Shown piece after piece: positions 6,201 to 36,330 of a stretch of 64,000 nucleotides of DNA. A program made the position numbers and the translations under genes. The first letter of the stretch is position 1. The number at the start of each line of letters is the position of its first letter. Source of the DNA: Mesaphorura yosii. Its lineage: Eukaryota > Arthropoda > Collembola > Poduromorpha > Tullbergiidae. Below the pieces are notes generated by a model. The model searched no databases. It was not told the origin of the DNA and was given only the letters and a program-made list of their open reading frames with translations. The DNA is taken from assembly GCA_009869945.1 (NCBI GenBank), contig WIXG01000024.1, positions 62,001 through 126,000 of the forward strand, in the 5' to 3' direction.

Positions 6201-8571
6201 CGTAAGCACTTGTTTCATTTCTTAAGCATTGTTTACATAAATCATCAAAATCATGACTGTCACCGCGTAAACTTTCCCCGCGTGAAATAAGTTATGCAAG
6301 AATATTTTATAAAGTTCTGTTTGCTTTGCGTGCAGGGAAAAAGTAAACAAGACAAGCTCAGAGCTGAAATCGCGCAAATTCTGGACATTCCTGAGTTAAA
6401 TGTGGACGTCTTCACAGTAATAAATCCACTCAGTGTTAATGACTTGAACGTGCTGGACGTCCGTTTTTCTGCTCACAACTCACCCTACTACCGAGTTGAA
6501 AAGCTGGATGGAATAATGGCGGAACGGCAGGAACAGGTACATAATGCAATCAATTGCTCAAGCCACATGCGACTCATGAATCGAATTGCTGTAGTAAATT
6601 ATGCCGCATACAAAATTTGGAATTTTCTAGTTGCAAAATGCGTTGGGGCTCAAGATTGTGATGATTAGAATCGACGAATGTCTTCAAGAAAGACATGGCT
6701 GTGAGTCAAGCTGCACTAACAGACTGGAGAAGAGCACGATTGCCTACCGAATTAATACCAACACATCTTCCTTTGTCGGGGTGAACGCTTACGTGGAACC
6801 AATTTGCACATGCGCGTCAGCCCTGGCTCCGTACTCGTGCACTCCAAATCCCTGCCTCAACCAAGGAGTCTGTCGAAGCGGACCATCCATCCACCGATAC
6901 GAGTAAGACTCGTTGTGTGACTTTGTATAGCTTACTGTCATTAGCTGGTGCGATGTTGTATATATGTCTGATGTCACAGGTGTGACTGCGTGAGTGGATA
7001 CAGTGGACCGAGATGCGAGCAGACATCTATTTCGTTTGAAGGAACAGGATACGCCTGGTTCCACCCACTCTCAGTTTGCAACGACTCAACTCTTGAAGTG
7101 CACTTCAATACACCTGTTGGGGATGGTCTCATTATGTACAATGGACCACTTTCGAGATTAGCTGCTCCAAACTTGACCGGTAACATTTAATACGGGACAC
7201 CATATGTTCAGGAGTATTGACGATTACTAAAGTGTCATACATATGTTATTTGGCCTAGATTTTATGTCCCTGGAATTAGTAAGTGGCCGACCGGTTTTTC
7301 TTATTGACTACGGCTCTGGTGTGAACAGACTTGAGCTTCCTGCCATAAACTTAGCTGACGCGAAAAATCACGTGGTTACACTGCGTTGGACGCCACATGT
7401 AAGATTGCCGTTGTAGATCCTGTCGAAGGCGATAAGACTTACTGACTAATTTGAACTGTTTGTTTAGGAATTATCGATGCGCGTGGATGATTGCCCAACG
7501 AGAGAAAAGACTTGTTATACCTTCAGTATGCCTTCTGGCTCGAAAGAATTTCTCAACGTCAATGGCCCGCTTCAGATTGGTGGAGTCTCTGTTGACCTGA
7601 GATCACTGAAGCCTTTCATGGGCTGGACAAACTCTCCAAACAGCAAACACTTTTCAGGCTGCATCGCTAATTTGTCCCTGAATGGAGAGGTAATTTATCA
7701 AAAACAGATTTAAACTGGATTGCACGACAAGCTTAATGAAATTCTTTGATTTTGCAGTTTTACAATTTGGGGAGTCCAAGCTACTCAGTTGGAAATGTTT
7801 CCACGTGTGATTCACCATTCGTATTAGTGCAGACAGCTACTTTAGGACCTGGGTTGAACTTTATAATAATTCTAATTGTCTGCATTTTGATCTTACTCAT
7901 TCTTGTCATCGCTATTGTCTTCTATCGTCGACGACGTAGCTACGAAGAAGTTAAAGGAGACCCTCACGACGATGTCCGAGAAAACATTATCAACTATGCT
8001 GGTAAGCACACTAGGCATACTGGAAATGTTCTCTTGCTTGATTTTATTCTTCATCGGAAAAATGATTTTCTTCATTTCAGACGAGGGTGGCGGCGAAGAA
8101 GACAAGGCCACGTATGACTTGAATGTCCTTCGAACAGCGTCAAACGGAGCTTTCATGCCGGGCGACAAAATACCAATGGAGGAAATGAGGCAACGAAGAG
8201 GTACGAATCGTTTATTTCATAACTTCACTGTTTCGTCAGAGATTTTGGAAATTCTAACACGTATTATTTGGTATTTAGCTCCTGCCGCTGGCGGACCTGA
8301 CATTGAGAGCTTTTTGGAAGCCAACAAGAACAAGGTTGACGAAGATCCGGAGGGGCTACCTTTCGACGACGTCAGGAATTATGCTTATGAAGGAGATGGA
8401 AACTCAGTCGGGTCGTTGTCTTCGCTAGCCTCAGGGACCGACGACGGAGACTTGAACTTCGACTACCTACCCACCTTTGGACCTAGGTTCAAGAAACTTG
8501 CGGACATGTACGGTGGTCAGTCGAGTGACGACGAAAGTTACATAGGTCCACCCAACGAGGCCTGGTGTTAG
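217..8571 (+). CDS. Classical cadherin, arthropod DE/DN type (3' part, 24 exons)
   Basis: Calcium-dependent cell-cell adhesion receptor that links to catenins. Exons: 217-414, 593-789, 877-1051, 1311-1487, 1971-2145, 2559-2596, 2698-2803, 3849-3970, 4055-4213, 4800-4919, 4993-5110, 5183-5220, 5296-5458, 5533-5664, 5739-5977, 6058-6201, 6336-6536, 6631-6902, 6980-7179, 7259-7398, 7468-7689, 7758-8001, 8081-8200, 8279-8571. They join in frame to 1,330 residues and a TAG stop. Order seen: about six cadherin repeats with DENDEKP, INDNPP and DENDN calcium motifs; the non-chordate region with the DLDDWDLPDK signature (about 5,840); a Cys-rich stretch and one EGF (6,670-7,020); one LamG domain; a membrane helix (about 7,855-7,920); then RRRR and a catenin-binding tail with DVRENIINY, DEGGGEED, NYAYEGDGN, SLSSLASGTDDGD and GPRFKKLADMYG. 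The 5' end lies outside the window. One EGF-LamG unit, rather than two, resembles Drosophila shotgun more than CadN. The family is certain; orthology is not. Confidence 0.93.
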
Positions 8572-10335: not shown

Positions 10336-10341
10336 TTTATT
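10336..10341 (-). terminator. Candidate polyadenylation signal of the HOP gene
   Basis: TTTATT on the plus strand reads AATAAA on the minus strand, about 150 bases after the HOP stop. The HOP and cadherin transcripts would therefore end within about 150 bases of each other, tail to tail. Confidence 0.4.
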
Positions 10342-10493: not shown

Positions 10494-12470
10494 TCACGAA
10501 AGTCGTCCGCTGACGGGATTCAAGCCCTGATCTCGTCTCCACATCGCCATGCGATGATCGAACCAAGCCTGCAAATATAATCACATAATTATTTGCAAAT
10601 GTCAGTTAATAAGCTAAACAATGCCAGCTAGTCACATGTAAGACATAAATTGGTGGTAAGTAAATGTGACCTTTGGCGAATACATGCGAAGTTTACTTCA
10701 ACGGTTTTCACGAAAGATTAAGGACGTTGAGACGGGAAATGTGAAACCCATTAAGGTGATTAACAACTGCATAGGTCAAGTAACTTACAAACTGTCAGGC
10801 TAAAGTGATAAATCTGGCGTGAAGCAAGTTCTCACTCACGCTGTGTCTGCGTCTGTGTTGTACATCACAAATTATTGTTTACACAGAGCGAACATTAAAT
10901 AACACACGCTAAAAGGATAAAATCCACAAAAAGCGTGCACAGAAAGGTACAATACGCAGCAGACGCATTGTCTGCAAGCATGTTACAGGAATTGTCATAA
11001 AATCCTAAATAATCTGCTCAGTTCTGTTTTATTAGTGTCTACGATGCGGGCTCGCAATCTCCCATAAAAGCTAAAGAACACAACCTAGACCTAGAATCAC
11101 TCGTCAGTCGTCAGCTGGCGTGCAATTTTTATTGCCTTGTTTAGATTTGCCGTTTCACCTTTTATAACTGTCTAGTTTTATGCTGAGACGGCAATAAAGC
11201 AAAAGCGATACAACAACGCCAGTTCGCCATGCTTAATTCGATTTAAGAAAACTCTCAAGACATCATGTCGCAGAGATACTGCATGAATTCAATTGCCCTT
11301 TCTTACTTGGAATTATGCGAGCAAGACATTTATAATTCAAAACTAATCAATTCCGCTTCTGATTAAGTATTTCCGTTGGTCTGCACTTGGCACTTGACAC
11401 AAGGCATTTTTGCAACGATCATGAAAGCGAAGAAACAAGCGTGCTGATTGTGATAAAACGTTCAGCTAATTTAATTGTCGTGCAGTGGACAACGGGGAGT
11501 GAGCTGCTAATTTTGTTGAAGTGGGACAGATTTCTGATAAAAAGTAAATATCTATTGAAATATGAAGCCGTGAACTCTTGTCATGAGCCATATTGCATCC
11601 CCAGCAGCATTGTTTGAAGGGGACCAAACTGACTCGATTAAACTCAGGCAGCCTTGAATAAATACATACAAAATTATCTCTCTTTCATGTGTGCTTAGCG
11701 TATTCAGCGCTTAGAAAGACCTGTCTCAGCATAAATAACAACAAATCCAAAGAATGAGCGATTACCCTCTTCTCGTTCAAGGTCTCAGTGAGAGAACGGA
11801 AGCGATAGGATGTGATCACAGGGAGAGGAGCTAATAATGGATTTGTGATTCGAGAATGATTTGGACATTTCTGGTGGAGATTCTACACGCGTATAACAGC
11901 AAACATTTTCACTTCCTCGCCAAACATCCAAATGTCCGTTCTGTCTTAGCGCAGGTTGCACAAAAGTTACTTTGACTTGCCATAAAAAAGTTGCTGATAT
12001 ATTTCGGAGCTTATCATTTAGCATGATCACGATCATGAGTGTAATAGCAGACGAACCCGTCAGTCGAAATTTATTCATGGCGGAGTTCACTCAGGCGTTG
12101 CAACCACATAATCAACTCAAGTGCATTATGCACGTTTCTGTAAGAGCAGGAACCGTGTTTACGAAACCTCAGTCCGGTCGTTATCAAGTGACGCATGGAA
12201 AGGCTTTCGCGTACATGGAGCTTCGCTGTATGTCATGTTCGCTTAATTTATGACATGAAAGCATGATTAAATTATTCTCACCTTGACTACTTCATCAGCA
12301 AGACCAGTTTCAGCAGCGATAAGCATCATTTCACTCGGATGAGGATTTTTTGTTTTGTTGAATTGTCTCTCAAGATTCTCGATTTGTTCTTCTGTCAATC
12401 TTGATTCAACGTTGTTTCCAGGCGAATTGACCTGTCGCTGCTGCTGAAGACGTACAGCTTCTGTCGCCAT
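10494..12470 (-). CDS. Homeodomain-only protein (HOP/HOPX-like), 2 coding exons
   Basis: Small protein that is almost entirely a homeodomain. Coding exons on the minus strand: 12470-12282 (ATG to residue 63) and 10568-10494 (residues 64-87 plus TGA). The intron begins GTGAG and ends TTTGCAG, in phase 0. The second exon is too short for a routine ORF scan. The homeodomain spans about residues 22-78: helix 1 has EEQIENLERQF, helix 2 MMLIAAETGL, and helix 3 AWFDHRMAMWRR. Core residues L33, F37, W65, F66 and W73 are present. The invariant Asn51 of DNA-binding homeodomains is His (H68), and Arg53 is Met. Vertebrate HOPX (73 residues) has comparable replacements and does not bind DNA; it acts as a transcriptional co-regulator. 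Similarity to HOPX also covers IAAE.GL and AKWRR..GL-type positions. A CAG acceptor at 12489-12491 just before the ATG suggests a 5' non-coding exon further upstream. Confidence 0.85.
10569..12281 (-). other. HOP intron
   Basis: A 1.7-kb intron between the two HOP coding exons. Open frames inside it (for example 11387-11617 and 11785-12253) show no recognisable domain. I see no repeat of note. Confidence 0.6.
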
Positions 12471-13130
12471 GCTGTCCTCTTTCCTTCACTGAAAATGAAA
12501 ACGTGTCTGACATGAGTACGAGAAGCACGAATGCGGACGCAGTCAATTGAAAACCCAGTCCATCATTTAAAAATGCATAAAATTTGGCCGTAACGCAGAG
12601 CGCCCGCATCCGCGTGTGTCTGGCAAAGTGCATTAGCATTACGTTTTTAACAGATTCAATTTTGATTCCATTTCACTCCATCAGCAACGCACAACTGCAC
12701 GAGTGAAACACAATCTCCAAACCCATATGTCCGTCGAGCTACATGCACGATGGATTTCAGGAATCTACAAATTCGCTTTTATTTATTTAAATGTGTCTTA
12801 AAAATAATTCAATGCAATAACAAATGAGAGAGTAAGAAGACGCGTCAAATACATGAAACAGACTGCGTTTAACCTACTTTGACATTCAATTGCGGGAGAT
12901 AGACAAAAGCGTTTTCGAAGTTCTCGCCTTGACGCATCTCTCAACCCATGGTGTGGGCACTGCCGACACAGTGTACATTCCAAATTCACTAACTCACTTG
13001 CTCTTTAGTTTCACAGCAGTCAAAACAATTCCATTAAGACAGACAGTCGCGGTTCTAATGTCAGTTAATAGACGCACTTTACGCACACGCACACGCACAA
13101 GCTTTATCAATATGCGAGTAGCAGAGTTGG

Positions 13131-13680
13131 ATGGATTAATGAACACCGTGTCCGGATTAAGGATTAGGATTAATTGCATGTGTTAATCCCAATTAAAGCT
13201 GGATTAATCCATTCCAGATTCTTCGGGATTGGATTGAATTAGGATTAATTGCCCTAACTGAAGTGGCTGGGATTAAGAATTATTAAATTGGATTAATATT
13301 GGATTAAGGATTTAGACAAATTACAAATTCGCAAAAAATTAAGAAATGATATTTATTGACACAGCTTTCACCTTACTGCCTATCAATTTTGACTATAACT
13401 AGTGTGTCAATCAATTCATCTGGCAAGTCTTCGAGTAAAAGTTAGACCGCCGTAGTAGCCACAGCTGTGAGTGCACACAAAGCTCGGTCCTCTCGTCATT
13501 TCGATCCAATGCTGGATTAAAATTAGATTGGGGTTAACAAAAACAAAATTCTGATTGAATTAAGATTAGATTTCGGGAATGAAACTTTGGGATTAAGGAT
13601 TAAGAATTGACAGACTTTTTCCGGGCGTGGGATTAAGGGTTAGGGATTATTAGTCCTTAACCCTTAATCTGGATCAACAA
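13131..13680 (+). repeat. Degenerate GGATTA(A) repeat array
   Basis: GGATTA occurs about fourteen times on the plus strand and about twice on the minus strand in 550 bases, in clusters at 13131-13315 and 13510-13670. The strong strand bias and variants such as GGGATTAAG and AGGATTAATT suggest a short tandem repeat that has drifted. The motif is also the binding core of K50 homeodomains (Bicoid/Otx type). The right end forms an inverted repeat: 13631-13649 pairs with 13651-13669 at about 17 of 19 positions. Confidence 0.75.
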
Positions 13681-27800: not shown

Positions 27801-28839
27801 AATGGTACACTCTGAAAGCTGTTTTTACTTCCCGTTTCGGCCAAACTCTTGCATCTCATTATTTATTCGTCTCCTGGTTTGCATATTCGTTCAGACCGGC
27901 TAACAATTATATCTGCGAACAGACAAGCAGGAGCACCCAAACTGCTTCAAGCCTGCCAGCAGATGCAGAATTTAATATTGTTTCAGAAAATGTTTACATT
28001 ACTCGAGAATAATAAAGAATCTCCTTGACTCGATTTGACTTGATAATTTGTACTTGTGCAGGGCACGAATTCGCCGTAAACGCCTGCATTTCTCTCACCC
28101 GGCACCTGTCTGCCTGCCAGTTTGGAGTTGGCAAGCACTTTTGTTGTTTTGCATATGAAAGGCGAGGAAAGAAGCATCAAACATAAATCGCATCAGTGCA
28201 AGAACTTCTTTCTTCCTCAACACCTTGCAACCTTTACAATAAGTGGATTTTTATCGTTACCCTCGCACTTATCGGGCCAACCTGTAATTGAGGTTTGGTG
28301 TTTGTTGTTCCTCAGATGAAGATGAAACGATGCCAGAAATGCCATGCAATTCGTGTTTTTGGTGCGGGTACATCGTACTTACATATACACAAGCAGACCC
28401 TAACGACCAACTCGAGTCTATCTCTTGTGCACCTGTCCTCGGATTCAGAAGATGGTTATTATGACTGGAGGGCAGGTTCAGAGATTCCACAACCGAATGC
28501 ATCGTAAAGGCACAGGTACAACTTTCTCACTGAAGCAATTCAAAACGATATTCAAAACTCAAGTTGACAAAACATTGCAGCAATTGACAAGCACAAAACG
28601 TGCTCATTTTATTCGATTCCGCATACTTGCACTTGCACATGGCCAGTGATCGTTAATTTCTTCAAAAGGTTTATATACTGCCAAATCAGCTAAAATGTGA
28701 GCGTGAAATGAAACCGTGAGGCCGTGGTCTTGGAGAGGAGGCTGGGGAATCTGGAAAGCTGCGAAGTCTGAAATTTGCGTTTTGCATTTGACTGGTTGCA
28801 GTTAAAATGCAATTTTTGTGAGTGCTAATGCTATGATCC
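24850..28839. other. Intergenic region before the synphilin-like gene
   Basis: About 4 kb with no gene I can support. Open frames at 27172-27525 and 27359-27586 overlap in two phases and match nothing I recognise. The one distinct feature is a short GC-rich hairpin cluster at 27612-27671. A 5' non-coding exon of the synphilin-like gene may lie here. Confidence 0.45.
27612..27671. repeat. GC-rich tandem hairpins
   Basis: In AT-rich surroundings, two perfect small hairpins sit side by side: CGGGC-CCCT-GCCCG at 27615-27628 and GCGGGC-TTTA-GCCCGC at 27641-27656. A near-palindromic CTAGCTTAGCTAG follows at 27659-27671. The origin is unknown; it could be a fragment of a small palindromic repeat. 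Confidence 0.5.
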
Positions 28840-31800
28840 ATGATGGATTCTAGCTTGCAGAGCGGAGGTGGCAACAGCGGCGGAAAAAGTACAGGCAGCG
28901 CCTGTCAGAAGACCAAACGAAGAGCCATTAATAAAACAAATGGAGCTCCTTCAACTCGTAACCTTTTGCGAAGGGTTATTAATAATCTGTCTAGCTCACA
29001 GGGAGCAAAGGCACTTCCTAGTCAAGGAGAGATAGAAGCGGCAGCAAAAGCAACAACAAGACATCCAAACTTCTCAAATCACATTTCCAAAAATCAAATC
29101 AAAATTGATGATGACGATGATGAATTCCGAAATAATAAGGTGAAAGAAAGTAGCATTTTCCTCCAGCTTGACCTATAAATTCAAAATACTTGAGCTTTTC
29201 CGGTTTTGAGTCAATACTTTGCTCGTGGCATGATGATAAATTTGTTTTCTTTTCCAGAGGAACGAAACGGAAGATTCCTATGCCACAGTGAACTCAATCA
29301 ATTACGAGCCGCTCCATGTCAAAAGAAACAATACAGTCTCTGCAGACATCAGATCCGATTTTCCGATCACGGGACACGCTCCAAAAACGTTGCCAATTCT
29401 ACAAGCACTGAACGAACTGAATTTATCAGCGAAAGTCATCGTCGGACAAAATGATAATGAAGAGGAATTCACGCCTTTCATGGAAAAATCTAAGATCCCT
29501 TCTTCAATTCTACGTGGCAATGTTTTGCACGGACGACAACCAATTCAACCACCTGAACCGGCTCCTCGGCCTTCAGTTGAATGCCCCATACAAAGGCAAG
29601 ATAAAATTGGGAAACCTGAAATAGCAGTGTCCTCAGCCTCAACCAGCTGTCTCGCCGCTGCAAGAAATTCCGGTCAGAAAGCTGCTGAACTTCCTTCCGT
29701 CGCACTACCGGGCACAAGGAGGTATCTCAAGAATAGCAGAGTTTCAAGTTCGCCACGGAGAAACCTCTTTAGTACCAATGATAACACACAGAACTCAATC
29801 ATCGCCTCGCCGTCTAGCCCAGGCAAAGTACACAAAACACCAAGTTGGATTTCAAAAATTTTTCAGTTCACCAGAAACGGGCGCTTGGATTTACTGGTAT
29901 GCCTTTGACACTTGGTCTTCTAAGGTGTTGAGGTCGAGCATTTCAATCTGGGTTCAACTGATGGGATGTAATGCAATTAATACAGAAAGAAGCAGCGTAT
30001 GGCCTGGACTTGACGTTGATTCGTCACTTGGTGGATGCCAAAGGAAACAATTTGTTGCACAGCTCAGGGCGGAAGGGCCATATTCACATTTTGGAGTGGC
30101 TTGTTTCTATTCTTGGGGACCAGTTCGAGGCAGCGTTAAATGATCAAAATGCTAATGGAAGTAACGTCATTCTGACTACCTTAAAAGTAATTCTTGCTTC
30201 AGTATAGGAATGTCCCTTTTCTAGAGAGTCCATTTGAATTTTCGTTAAATTTCAGAATTCACAGTTGACCTGCTTGCAATGGCTAATCATCAATACGATC
30301 ACTGGCAGCAACGCGTTAACAGCAAAAGACGGCAAGAGCTCTCTCCTTCATTACGCTGCCAAGTACAATCTGGTTGACGCCGCCAGACTGCTTTGTGAAT
30401 TTCACGTGCAGTACCAAATTACACATGACATTCAGGACTCTTCCTTCTGCACACCGCTGCACATCGCAGCCAAGTTTGGAAATATCAACGTTGCTCAAGT
30501 TCTGATTCAATTTGGGGCAGACCCGTCGGGTCAAGTACGTTGTCCCACGCTTGCTTTCTAGCATTGTAGCGATACAAGTGTGTCATTGTCACTGAAAACG
30601 AAAAATGACAATTCAGATCGACCCAGAAACAATCCTCTGACATCACATTATGCTCACATTCAATGCGCTTCTACTATTTTGTTCCTGCCCCCTTGATTTA
30701 ATTCCCGGATGCTGTTTCATGTTTCCACAACACGTTTCTGGTTTAAACATTGCGGGCAGCATTTCCACGCACGAAAGATTTGTTTATACTCCTTCATATG
30801 CTTCGATAAATGGCAAGTTCTGATGTCATGAAAAAGTTTTTCGCCCTATTTGTCAGGCTGTGCTCGAGTGGTCTGCGCCTAGCTTTGTGCGGTACATGAG
30901 CTGAGGACTTGTGTGTGTTGACTTGTTGACTTTTCTAACGCCGTATGATTGGTAATGGTGATAGCAGTTGTTGGAACGCAGCAAGTGCATGCCGTGTAAC
31001 TGCTGAAATTGATTCGATTAATGTTTTCGCTGTTTAACTTTCTAGACCGAGCTCGGCTGCAAACCCTCAGATTTGGCATTGAGACATCGTCACATGCATT
31101 GCGTAGCATATTTCAGGATGGCCGAAGCAGCTGCGGCACTTGGAAATGATCTTGGTTCACTCATGACTCAACTCAACACGCTCCAGGCACACTTTGAGAC
31201 ATTAAGAACTCACTTCAGGTTCGTTCAGTCTGATTCTATAATTCAATTGATCTGCGTAAGATGTCTGGCTACTAACTTATTGATTGCCTTCACTGGGTGC
31301 TCTTCCTTCCAATTGAGTTTATGCCGATATGACCTTATTGTTTGCTTCCTGGCTCCCTTCCCTCTTCGGTAGTTGGCAGCCATTGTAATTGGAACATATT
31401 TCTGGCAGTATTGCCTTTTGTTTTTATGGACAAAAGTGTGAGCTGGAGTTCGTGTTGTTTGTGAGCTAGTTCCGTAACGATATAAACCTGCAGCACCTCT
31501 TTCGATGGTTCTCAGCGCATTAATTATGCAGCCGTCTTCCCATTGAGCAGGAAAATAGTCGCCTTGTTGTGTTGGGCGCATCACTGATTTATTTTGTGCG
31601 TTCTGATGTTTGTGTTGCAGGGATGTGCTTCGTGTTGGTAAATGTCTTACGAAGGAAAGAAACGAGCTAATAAAACATTTCCCATTTGTTGGCTCAAAAT
31701 CATCTCCGGAAGAAACTGCCGCTGCCACAACGGCACTGCTCTTAGGTGGAACTACAAATAATGGAGTCAGATTTTCAGATTTGGAACATAAACTTGTTCA

Positions 31801-34800
31801 AGCAGAACAAGCATGGAAACAAATTGAGACGCGGCAGACTGCAGACGCTGGCTCGTCGCTTCTGAGAAGCTCCTTTCAACGGGACGATTTGTGCAGCAGT
31901 CACAAGCAGTCGTTCCTTCTACAGTTGAGTTTGCTCTTGTGTTTGACTGTTTGTTTACTTGAGCTTGACATAAATTAAGAGCGCAGACCATTTTATGGCT
32001 CGTGTTTCTAAATTTGCGCACCGAGTTTTGTACTTCGCATTTATGTATCTTTTATGAAACTCGTTCTCTTATCCACCTGATGATGCTGCAATGGTATTCT
32101 TCCGTTATTCCATGATTGAAATGTTTTCAGGAAGTACTTGGCCGACATTCAGCCGGTTCTCCAAAGGAGTCGACACTCTTCGGGCTCAATCTTGCTTGAT
32201 ATCGAGTCTTCCTCAAGCGGAGATTCCTCAAACTGTGGGGAGAGCAGTGAAGACGATGACGTGTTTGACGAAGAAGGATTGGGTGAACCAACCTACTACA
32301 ATATCGCTCAGTGCCACTTGAATAAAGCCAAAAGCTGCTCATATCCACCTGCTTCCTCAAACACTCCTTGGCTCCTTCCATCTACCGAAACTTCGATCTT
32401 GTCTTCGCTTTCGCCGGGCGGAATGAGTCCACAAAACTCGCCAATGCCGAATATGAATTTACTCGGAAACTCTCCCTTATGGAAGAACTCACCGGATTTT
32501 CTGCCGAGGCGAGGTAACATTTGTGCTTACCGTCGATTATATTTTACTGAGTTGAAATCAACGATTCATATTATGCACACATTTTCGGAATTAACATGAA
32601 ATCAATGCTCAATTTACAGAGTCCACGCCTCTCAAGAACTCGTCCTTCACTTCATCGTCCTCAATTGGCGTTCCCGTTTCGCCAGGCACACCAAAGGCCC
32701 TAAAGTTTATTCCTGTTGAAACTGGAAGCGAGGAAGTTACCTCAGCTGCGGCAGTAATCGAAGTGATAGAACCAGTGTGCATAAAACCAAATAAGGTATA
32801 CACGCAAAGCTTGCATCGCCAACCTATTAGCTCTCTGTTGCCTGTGTAAACCAACTCAAAATCCTTTGGAGTTTGTTTTCTCACATTTCCCCTATTGCCT
32901 ACAATTTCCTTTCAACCACGTTAGTTTCTGCATTCAAGCGTGGCCGGGTAGCAATTCATTCACTGCTCGTGAGGCACTGGAAATAACCCCAAAAGTACAG
33001 AAACCACATTCGAGGCGTAGCAGTACCAAACTAATAAATATATAATAGAGTGAAAGCGGAGTGCATGCAAAAGGCCAGAGGAAGACTTGTTAAAATTTCA
33101 AATAGTGTAAACGAATGTCATTTCAACTTTTCTGGTTGAAAGAATAGATTGATGAATGAGAACGAAGTGAAGAAGAAAGTTTTTATGATTACCACAAAGT
33201 AAAAACACCAAAAATCCTTCACGACTCTCTTAATCTAAATATGAGAGCGCGCAAAACATTTGCAGGCTGAAAGTTTCGAAATCTAAGTTGATTTATTTCC
33301 TTCGTGATTCGTTTGAGATCCCGACAAATATCACACAGTGAACGGTTTTCTAAACGGAAAGGAAAAGGAACGACTTGCATCGGCACCACTCACAAAAGCA
33401 TTCGAATCCTCTCCTTTCATGTCGGTTTTGATTAGTTTGGTTATCCACGTGCATATGTGGTGAAAATGAAAACCGTACACAGGGATCAAGTGTGCTTCTA
33501 CTTCCTAAATCCTAAATAAACTTAATTTTATTGGCTCGTTTCAAAATCCAACCATTCTCTGCATGAAATTAACTCAACTTGTTTACGCAGTCCACCAGCA
33601 GCAGTCCGGGCAACTCCAAACCAAAGCAAACATCATCATCAAATAACACGCCATCAAAACTTTTACCAAACAATGGAGACGGAGGACATGGCATGAAAAA
33701 ACTTTCGCGTGATTGGATTCCTGCCGACAACTCAATACTCGTTGAAATCGGATCGGGTGGAAGCCTGAGCTGTGCGATTGATAATGAAATGTTTACGTAT
33801 GAGAAGAACAAGAAGTCCACAGGCAGACACGGAACAACAAACTTAGCCGTCCCTACTATTCAAGCTAATATAAAGGTAAAAGGCGAAATTGAACCTGATC
33901 GGTATAATTTTTTAATCAAGTTTGCTTGTGCGGATTCGGCGAATTCGGTCGAGTTGAATAAATTCGTTCTTTTACCTTTAGGAGACCAAAGCAGCAAGAG
34001 ACTCTGGTCAAACATTTCAAGATGTTGAGGCCTGCGAGGCCAATATGCCATTTGCAGGCAGCCAAATTCATCACTCGCCAAAACCAAAGCGGCGACCCAG
34101 AAGACGGGAAGTCGACAATTACGGAGACTCATTTCCAGTCATTGACTCAAAACTGGAAATGGGATTTCCTCCATCAAAGGAAACATGCAATCAAATTGCT
34201 CAATCTACGCAGTGCCATACATTAGATAGTTGCGACATTTGTGGTAACATTGTCAGTAGTAGTTGTACATGTCTAGAATCACCGGAATTGAATATGGGGC
34301 CAGAATATTCCACTGTGGTATCTGCACACTCAGGCTTAACAGATAAAGAAAAAATGCAGTCTCGGGAATCAAGTTTAGTTAAAGTTCCTGTTCCGCAACT
34401 TCGGAGCTCCATTTCGACCTCACAGCGCAATGAGCAGCACCAAAGCACATTTTCAAATCGTTTAACTGCGTTTCCCGAACCCAAAATTAAATTTCCTGTC
34501 TCACATTCCCCATCGAAGAACCCGACAGATCACTCTCACCGTGTTGCCGGTACATCTTCATCTATCACTCACGTTCCTCTCGTGCAAACATCTTCTCCAG
34601 CATCGGCACATTCATCTGGGTCGGACTCTCCGAACATTGAATCATCGTCAACGAGGCCAGCGTGGCCGGTTGTAGATTTACCTCAGTGCTCTCCTTTGGA
34701 GTATGCTAGAAGTCTCAACGGTCATCAGTCACCGAGCCCTTCGGAGACTGAATCTGCACTTGCTCCACCTCCCAGCCAAGTATCGCAGAACTCTGACACG

Positions 34801-36330
34801 TCCAAAACAGAATCTGTACGCGGTCAACAGAGCACAACAGATATGCGGGCTCCTGAAGACGAGGGTTTGGGCGATGCGAACAGAGACAGCAACAGTATCA
34901 TCATCAACTATTGTCAGATCGTGACAGCTCCAGCAAAGTCAGCGTACGATTCCAGGCTGAAGATGATGAGTGGCAGAAAGAGAGCAGATCTTGTTGACCG
35001 AGACAAGGGCTCTTGTGACAATCAACGGCCAGCAGATGACAAAATTGATAATAATGAGACCGGAGAAAGCAGTGAGAATGGAGTGGGCTGTAGTGTTGTG
35101 CAATCATCAATCACGGAGGCTGTCAAAACAACACACTCAACACCCACAATTTCTCTCAACGCATCCACGGAACCCATTCACAGCAACAATAACAAGGAAC
35201 CCATCAAGGTGAGAGCACTGGGAGTAGAGTGCATCTCTCTTCCGCTTCCTTGTTAATGCGAATTACTGGAATAATGAAACGCATCAACCAAAGCACTAAA
35301 TAATCAAAGTCACCCTTCATTTAGTGTGTCGAAAAGAGTTCGCACCCAAAGCCAGGTCTGAGCGAGAATGAAAACTCTGCTCTCTGCTTTTTGCTTATGC
35401 ATTTGCTCGTGCTGAATTCTCTTTCAAAGCGAATTCAATTATTTATTAATGCAGCTTTCTCGTGCTGCGCTGCAGTCACAGCAGTACAGCCTATCTGCAC
35501 AGGAAGAATGCAATTGCCTCTTTTTTCCTTTTCGAAATTTCGTCTTTGATCCTTATATTAGCATAACCTCCTTTCGTGGCGGCAGAATAAATTATTTAGC
35601 CCTAAATTAAAGTTTGCAAAATAATGCGAGTCACTCCTTCAGTCTTTTCAGTTAGAAATAAAGTAAAATGTTTATTGCAAAGTGATTCGCTACGCACATT
35701 TGTTACTCTCATCAGTTTGACAGAAAATCTATGGGAAAGACTTTTCGTGCCCGAATTCTGCTTCCAATCCTCTGTAGCTCTACATTTCTAGTTCCATTTG
35801 ATCATTTTTGGGTCCATTTACTAATTTTACAATTGAGCAAAGTGGGCAAATCATTGAGAATCTGACAGAATGAATTCACATATCTGTCAGAATCTCGTAC
35901 TCTATTTTAATGTGCTGAGCTTCTTTTGCTTAGATCTGCACTTTCTGATTGCTGGCTCTAATTTTCATGGACTCCAATTGTAATTATTGATTCTGATAGT
36001 CAACAGTGTCTATAATTCTATGGTTTAAGTTAAGTTAGCAGTTGACTTAACTTGACTTCATGACTTGGGCCCTTCAACCTTCGTGTAATTTTGTTCTCCT
36101 ATGTTTAGAATGTGGAACAGCAGCCGAAACCCTGGTATGAGGTCGAAATGTCAGATGACGAGGACGAAATTCTGCTTCATGTAGCACGTGCACGTGCGCA
36201 GACCAGCCTATCGTCCAAACCCAACTCGGATGAGGACGAACGTTTGGAAAAAGCCATACAAATACGGCGCAGCGAACATCAGTGCGACTCAAATAATTGC
36301 TCACAGTTCAACTGCCCAAATTTTGTGTAG
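28840..36330 (+). CDS. Synphilin-1-like ankyrin repeat protein, 11 exons
   Basis: Cytoplasmic ankyrin/coiled-coil protein similar to vertebrate synphilin-1 (SNCAIP), which binds alpha-synuclein and ubiquitin ligases. Exons: 28840-29139, 29258-29896, 29986-30186, 30256-30534, 31046-31218, 31621-31923, 32131-32513, 32620-32795, 33591-33875, 33982-35208, 36109-36330. They join in one frame to 1,395 residues plus TAG; human synphilin-1 has 919. The start is the first ATG after an in-frame TGA at 28834. A basic N-terminal region leads to the ankyrin block (about residues 325-500): DAKGNNLLHSSGRKGH, NSQLTCLQWLI, SLLHYAAKYN, TPLHIAAKFGN and CKPSDLALRH. A helix like the synphilin coiled coil follows (LGSLMTQLNTLQAHF). 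The order GNNLLH / QL.C..W / LIHYA / AVHVA / KPS..A / coiled coil follows the human protein. The rest is Ser/Pro-rich and probably disordered, ending in an acidic WYEVEMSDDEDEILL segment. The donor after 31923 (GTTGAG) is weak. Confidence 0.82.

Follow-up and report, generated by a model that had tools for sequence, protein, structure and literature searches.

Does a compact arthropod genome hold a counterpart of HOPX, the textbook case of a homeodomain working without DNA? The question is raised by a short minus-strand gene in a 64,000-nucleotide stretch of DNA, hereafter the window, which corresponds to positions 62001-126000 of contig C24 in an assembly of 93 Mb and 1127 contigs. Two exons of this gene join to encode a complete protein of 87 residues. 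Its features, in window positions, are as follows.

12489..12490, minus strand: possible upstream splice acceptor AG of a 5' leader (TTTTCATTTTCAG), read by eye, with an in-frame TGA directly after it
12282..12470, minus strand: exon 1, ATG and codons 1-63, encoding the N-terminal tail and homeodomain residues 1-46
12282..12419, minus strand: homeodomain residues 1-46 (helices I and II), from the PF00046 match, numbered by W48
10569..12281, minus strand: intron of 1713 bases, GT-AG, phase 0, at homeodomain position 46/47
10494..10568, minus strand: exon 2, codons 64-87 and the stop codon TGA, encoding homeodomain residues 47-60 and the C-terminal tail
10527..10568, minus strand: homeodomain residues 47-60, the recognition helix, with D50, H51, M53 and M55
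10336..10341, minus strand: AATAAA, a candidate polyadenylation signal some 150 bases beyond the stop codon, from a consensus match only

Judged by its anatomy in the sequence, this two-exon unit is a real gene. The initial annotation had proposed the junction 10568/12282 and the 87-residue product, and we confirmed the coordinates, the reading frame and the GT-AG, phase-0 intron. The splice donor reads AAG/GTGAGA and the acceptor TTATATTTGCAG/GC, with the slash marking the exon boundary. An in-frame TGA lies as the codon 18 bases 5' of the ATG, so the reading frame cannot be extended N-terminally. Scored against the 17 HOP residues that follow position 46, exon 2 reached 55, whereas the runner-up among 1639 open AG acceptors on the same strand of the window scored 16, the best of 1624 open acceptors on the opposite strand scored 31, and the best acceptor in 20 shuffled 64-kb sequences scored 28. 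The short second exon is therefore no chance pick. A second exon of 24 codons, together with strong divergence, illustrates how such a gene can escape homeobox surveys. That the locus is instead a pseudogene or an unexpressed relic is hardly credible, given the intact frame, the canonical splice sites, the upstream in-frame stop followed by an ATG, the polyadenylation signal and the retention of the helix-core residues L16, F20, L40, W48 and F49.

The predicted product is little more than a homeodomain, and Homeodomain (PF00046) was the only Pfam family above the cut-off (4.5e-13, protein residues 24-75). In a phmmer ranking of PDB chains, which covers 131 distinct sequences with E values up to 1, the top two matches were structures of HOP, 1uhs (mouse HOP; 5.3e-14) and 2hi3 (1.8e-13). 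These were followed by engrailed (5.9e-9, a two-domain chain), Pax6 (1.2e-8) and goosecoid (9.6e-8), so that HOP and the next match are separated by about five orders of magnitude in E value. Identity across the homeodomain was about 50% (28/55 residues to 2hi3 and 27/56 to 1uhs) and at most 35% to any of the 49 other homeodomains in our tree, the best values being 20/57 in two rows and 21/60 in GSC. We also defined 25 positions as HOP-specific, meaning that the HOP residue is present in no more than two other rows of the tree. The protein shares five of these residues (E10, N21, P28, L33 and E43), all of them outside helix 3, and the next row, human GSC, shares two.

In the reciprocal direction, mouse HOP was searched against the genome exon by exon, with only the best candidates scored. 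Exon 1 (match coordinates C24:74279-74470) obtained 29.6 bits with 53% identity over 39 residues and a Pax-type gene on C49 obtained 29.8 bits with 39% identity over 57, a tie that we attribute to the intron splitting the HOP match. No second HOPX copy was found among the 11 mouse HOP matches with E values up to 10 in the genome. One of the 11 was exon 1; the other ten comprised the Pax-type gene on C49, Pax6 on C98 and further homeodomains, and all ten have Asn at position 51 as read from the translations.

We then placed the gene in a tree of 52 homeodomains, comprising the gene itself, two rows for HOP, 38 further homeodomains of this genome and 11 from human. The two HOP rows are near-identical and are the only HOPX references, and the family labels of the genome's own rows were given by recognition. 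The genome's own rows were drawn from 50 homeobox loci (L007-L036 and L043-L062) out of 108 profile matches; 12 loci (L018, L024, L025, L033, L034, L036, L052, L056, L057, L059, L061 and L062) were left out as copies, as partial or for brevity, and L010 and L014 were labelled with the names of their duplicates, L003 and L006. The gene formed a clade with HOP with support of 100/98. This grouping persisted at 96/92 when it was built from columns 1-46, that is, after removal of columns 47-60, which contain the changed contact residues.

An alternative to orthology is that the locus is a fast-evolving PRD-class gene, such as Gsc, Pax or a lineage-specific duplicate, which lost its DNA contacts independently and resembles HOPX through convergence and long-branch attraction. 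The branches of the gene and of the HOP stem are indeed long, the tree software warned that long branches may be meeting, and the residues at positions 50, 51 and 53 are unlike those of HOP. In the approximately unbiased (AU) test on 57 columns, a clade with Pax3/7 was 13.96 log-likelihood units worse and was not rejected (p 0.264), whereas a clade with Gsc was 16.45 units worse and was rejected (p 0.0245). We weigh the tree as good, not decisive, because it rests on 57 columns and long branches. Convergence would nevertheless have to accommodate a HOP grouping that holds up without that helix, the five HOP-specific residues outside it and the E-value gap to non-HOP proteins, and we consider a divergent PRD gene unlikely. 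The HOPX assignment made in the initial annotation is thus supported by the PDB ranking and by the HOP clade in both versions of the tree; the homeodomain phylogeny that it had called for bears the assignment out as regards grouping with HOP and exclusion from Gsc, and leaves the Pax3/7 placement standing in the AU test. Taken together, these comparisons indicate that the gene is very probably an arthropod orthologue of HOPX.

The position of the intron is compatible with this assignment. Human HOPX has an intron at 46/47 that is common to many PRD-class genes, according to Holland et al. 2007 (PMC2211742), and the phase-0 intron of the gene studied here lies at the same position. In the same genome, 15 of 20 homeobox loci end at 46/47 in phase 0, as read by eye from exon ends; these 20 were chosen because their profile match stopped near 46/47. 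Since the intron is shared with other PRD genes, as a divergent member of that class would also show, it speaks for PRD ancestry and fits HOPX, without setting HOPX apart from the rest of the class.

The residues that contact DNA are changed at the positions noted in the initial annotation, Asn51 to His and Arg53 to Met, both of which we confirmed in the translation. The protein has E5, H51 and M53, where HOP (1uhs) has A5, Q51 and L53. All other tree rows in which the column is filled retain the canonical residue (R5 in 48/48, N51 in 34/34 and R53 in 34/34). His51 and Met53 differ from the Gln and Leu of HOP, so the loss at these two positions may be partly parallel. The net charge of the homeodomain is -3, as it is in HOP, compared with +2 for PAX6, +7 for OTX2 and +12 for Antp. 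On the basis of residues and charge, the protein has probably lost the ability to bind DNA.

According to a review (PMC9179269), vertebrate HOPX shows no DNA binding and works through SRF, HDAC2 and Epc1. The genome studied here contains an SRF-type MADS box at C405, split by an intron, and a MEF2-type MADS box at C463, both typed by recognition. From the lost contacts, the charge, the review of HOPX and the SRF gene, we take the product to be a protein-binding co-regulator, with its expression and its partners inferred. In the mechanism that we propose, the 87-residue, PRD-class-derived, homeodomain-only protein would adopt a normal homeodomain fold through its conserved core residues. The loss of R5, N51, R53 and the basic residue at position 55, together with the net acidic charge of the domain, would leave it with no hold on DNA. 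It would instead serve in the nucleus as a co-regulator by binding other proteins, as vertebrate HOPX does; SRF and a histone deacetylase are candidate partners, and the transcription that they control would be damped or redirected. We regard this co-regulator mechanism as reasonably likely, and we hold the explanation as a whole, an arthropod HOPX orthologue acting as a co-regulator, to be quite probable.

The gene shares with vertebrate HOPX (1uhs and 2hi3) its homeodomain-only size, about half of its residues, the 46/47 intron, the loss of N51 and R53 and a net acidic domain; the human isoforms are 73 and 91 residues long according to the HOPX review (PMC9179269). It differs in having Asp50, His51 and Met53 where vertebrate HOPX has Lys, Gln and Leu, and in a 17-residue N-terminal tail that falls outside the alignment. 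It also lacks the one-residue insertion that vertebrate HOPX carries between helices I and II, a difference that counts against the assignment, although we know the insertion only from the human protein and the PDB entries.

In Holland et al. 2007 (PMC2211742), Hopx was listed among the families without invertebrate orthologues. Paps et al. 2015 (PMC5322547) reported molluscan Hopx, from two oysters and one snail, inferred an origin at the base of Bilateria with several losses, and had Tribolium as the sole ecdysozoan in ten genomes. On that account these molluscan genes, likewise from protostomes, belong to the family too, a likeness that we draw by description. The initial annotation had presented the gene, if confirmed, as dating the family before the protostome-deuterostome split; that suggestion is outdated, as the same date had already been drawn from molluscan Hopx by Paps et al. 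2015. A further candidate is Lopx, a divergent homeodomain family near Hopx that we compared by description only. In a spiralian survey (PMC6118893), Lopx stands apart from every PRD-class family but Hopx, which would allow the gene to be a Lopx member or an arthropod counterpart of this lophotrochozoan family. The same survey describes Lopx as carrying a conserved C-terminal motif and as confined to Lophotrochozoa, whereas the protein encoded here ends 10 residues past the homeodomain. On this description, Lopx would be a very surprising identity for the gene, and HOPX remains the assignment that we prefer.

What appears to be new is the occurrence of Hopx in an arthropod, and hence in Ecdysozoa. 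The searched text of homeobox papers on spiders, centipedes and Lepidoptera (PMC10726417, PMC4244043 and PMC9977156) does not mention Hopx, and we found no report of an arthropod or ecdysozoan Hopx in the literature searched, which was mostly the main text of open-access articles; protein databases may still contain an entry that has gone unnoticed. The sequence also adds that the vertebrate insertion is absent and that the loss of DNA contacts is shared with HOP. We lean towards the view that no ecdysozoan HOPX has been recorded before, and that a contact-free, acidic homeodomain had a single origin before the bilaterian split, persisting in one arthropod or more while many other lineages lost it. 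If so, the one-residue insertion would be a later addition to vertebrate HOPX, and the adaptor role would be older than the heart programme in which HOPX was found. An arthropod copy would extend the published chordate and mollusc range of Hopx to Ecdysozoa, support a single ancient loss of DNA contacts followed by repeated gene loss, and make it possible to ask what the ancestral adaptor did in an animal with neither a vertebrate heart nor a lung.

The arthropod host inferred in the initial annotation is well supported: the genome contains 66 matches to the RR-cuticle domain (Chitin_bind_4) and, on contig C22, a Hox cluster with abd-A, Ubx, Antp, ftz, Scr and Dfd in order, named by recognition. 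A contaminating contig from a mollusc or a vertebrate was ruled out by the 405-kb length of the contig, the DE-cadherin-type neighbour, the arthropod Hox cluster and the RR-cuticle matches. We found no match to COX1 in the assembly, and none to insect odorant receptors, a blank that does not show absence. More than three globin matches would be expected of a branchiopod, and the genome gave three. When its arginine kinase was compared with PDB chains, 4rf6 and 4wo8 scored highest (741 and 702 bits) because each consists of two domains that both contribute to the score. Among single-domain arginine kinases, 4bg4, 5zhq, 4bhl, 4am1 and 8yx0, which we take to be from decapod crustaceans, scored 626-644 bits, followed by 7re6 (608) and 1m15 (588), the latter presumably from the horseshoe crab. 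Our best guess for the host is a pancrustacean other than an insect.

The nearest recognised neighbour of the HOPX-like gene, about 2-4 kb away, is a DE-cadherin (shotgun)-type gene at 6291-8568 on the plus strand, with two Pfam domains.

6291-6665, plus strand: Ig_Shg domain (9.3e-15)
7891-8568, plus strand: cadherin cytoplasmic tail (4.5e-26)

On the other side, 0.66-1.18 kb 5' of the start of the HOPX-like gene, positions 13133-13649 hold 14 copies of GGATTA and two of TAATCC within roughly 520 bases. The second motif is the core site for Lys50 homeodomains. An 89% copy of this cluster at C86:40661-41170 makes a dispersed element likelier than an enhancer. Farther along the window, an open frame at 30238-30558 encodes ankyrin repeats (Ank_2, 2.2e-12) and is surrounded by long open frames (28837-35253), three of which have no Pfam match.

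Two further observations concern other homeobox loci of the genome. L027 (C621:12349-12519) is a divergent Antp-like homeobox, FNRFITNKRRSEISRTLGL, which lies outside the Hox contig and is perhaps a derived Hox duplicate. The homeodomains of L018 (C36:40447-40617) and L017 (C794:11790-11960) are letter-identical, with residues that differ shortly downstream, and the pair is likely to be a recent duplicate or an uncollapsed allele.
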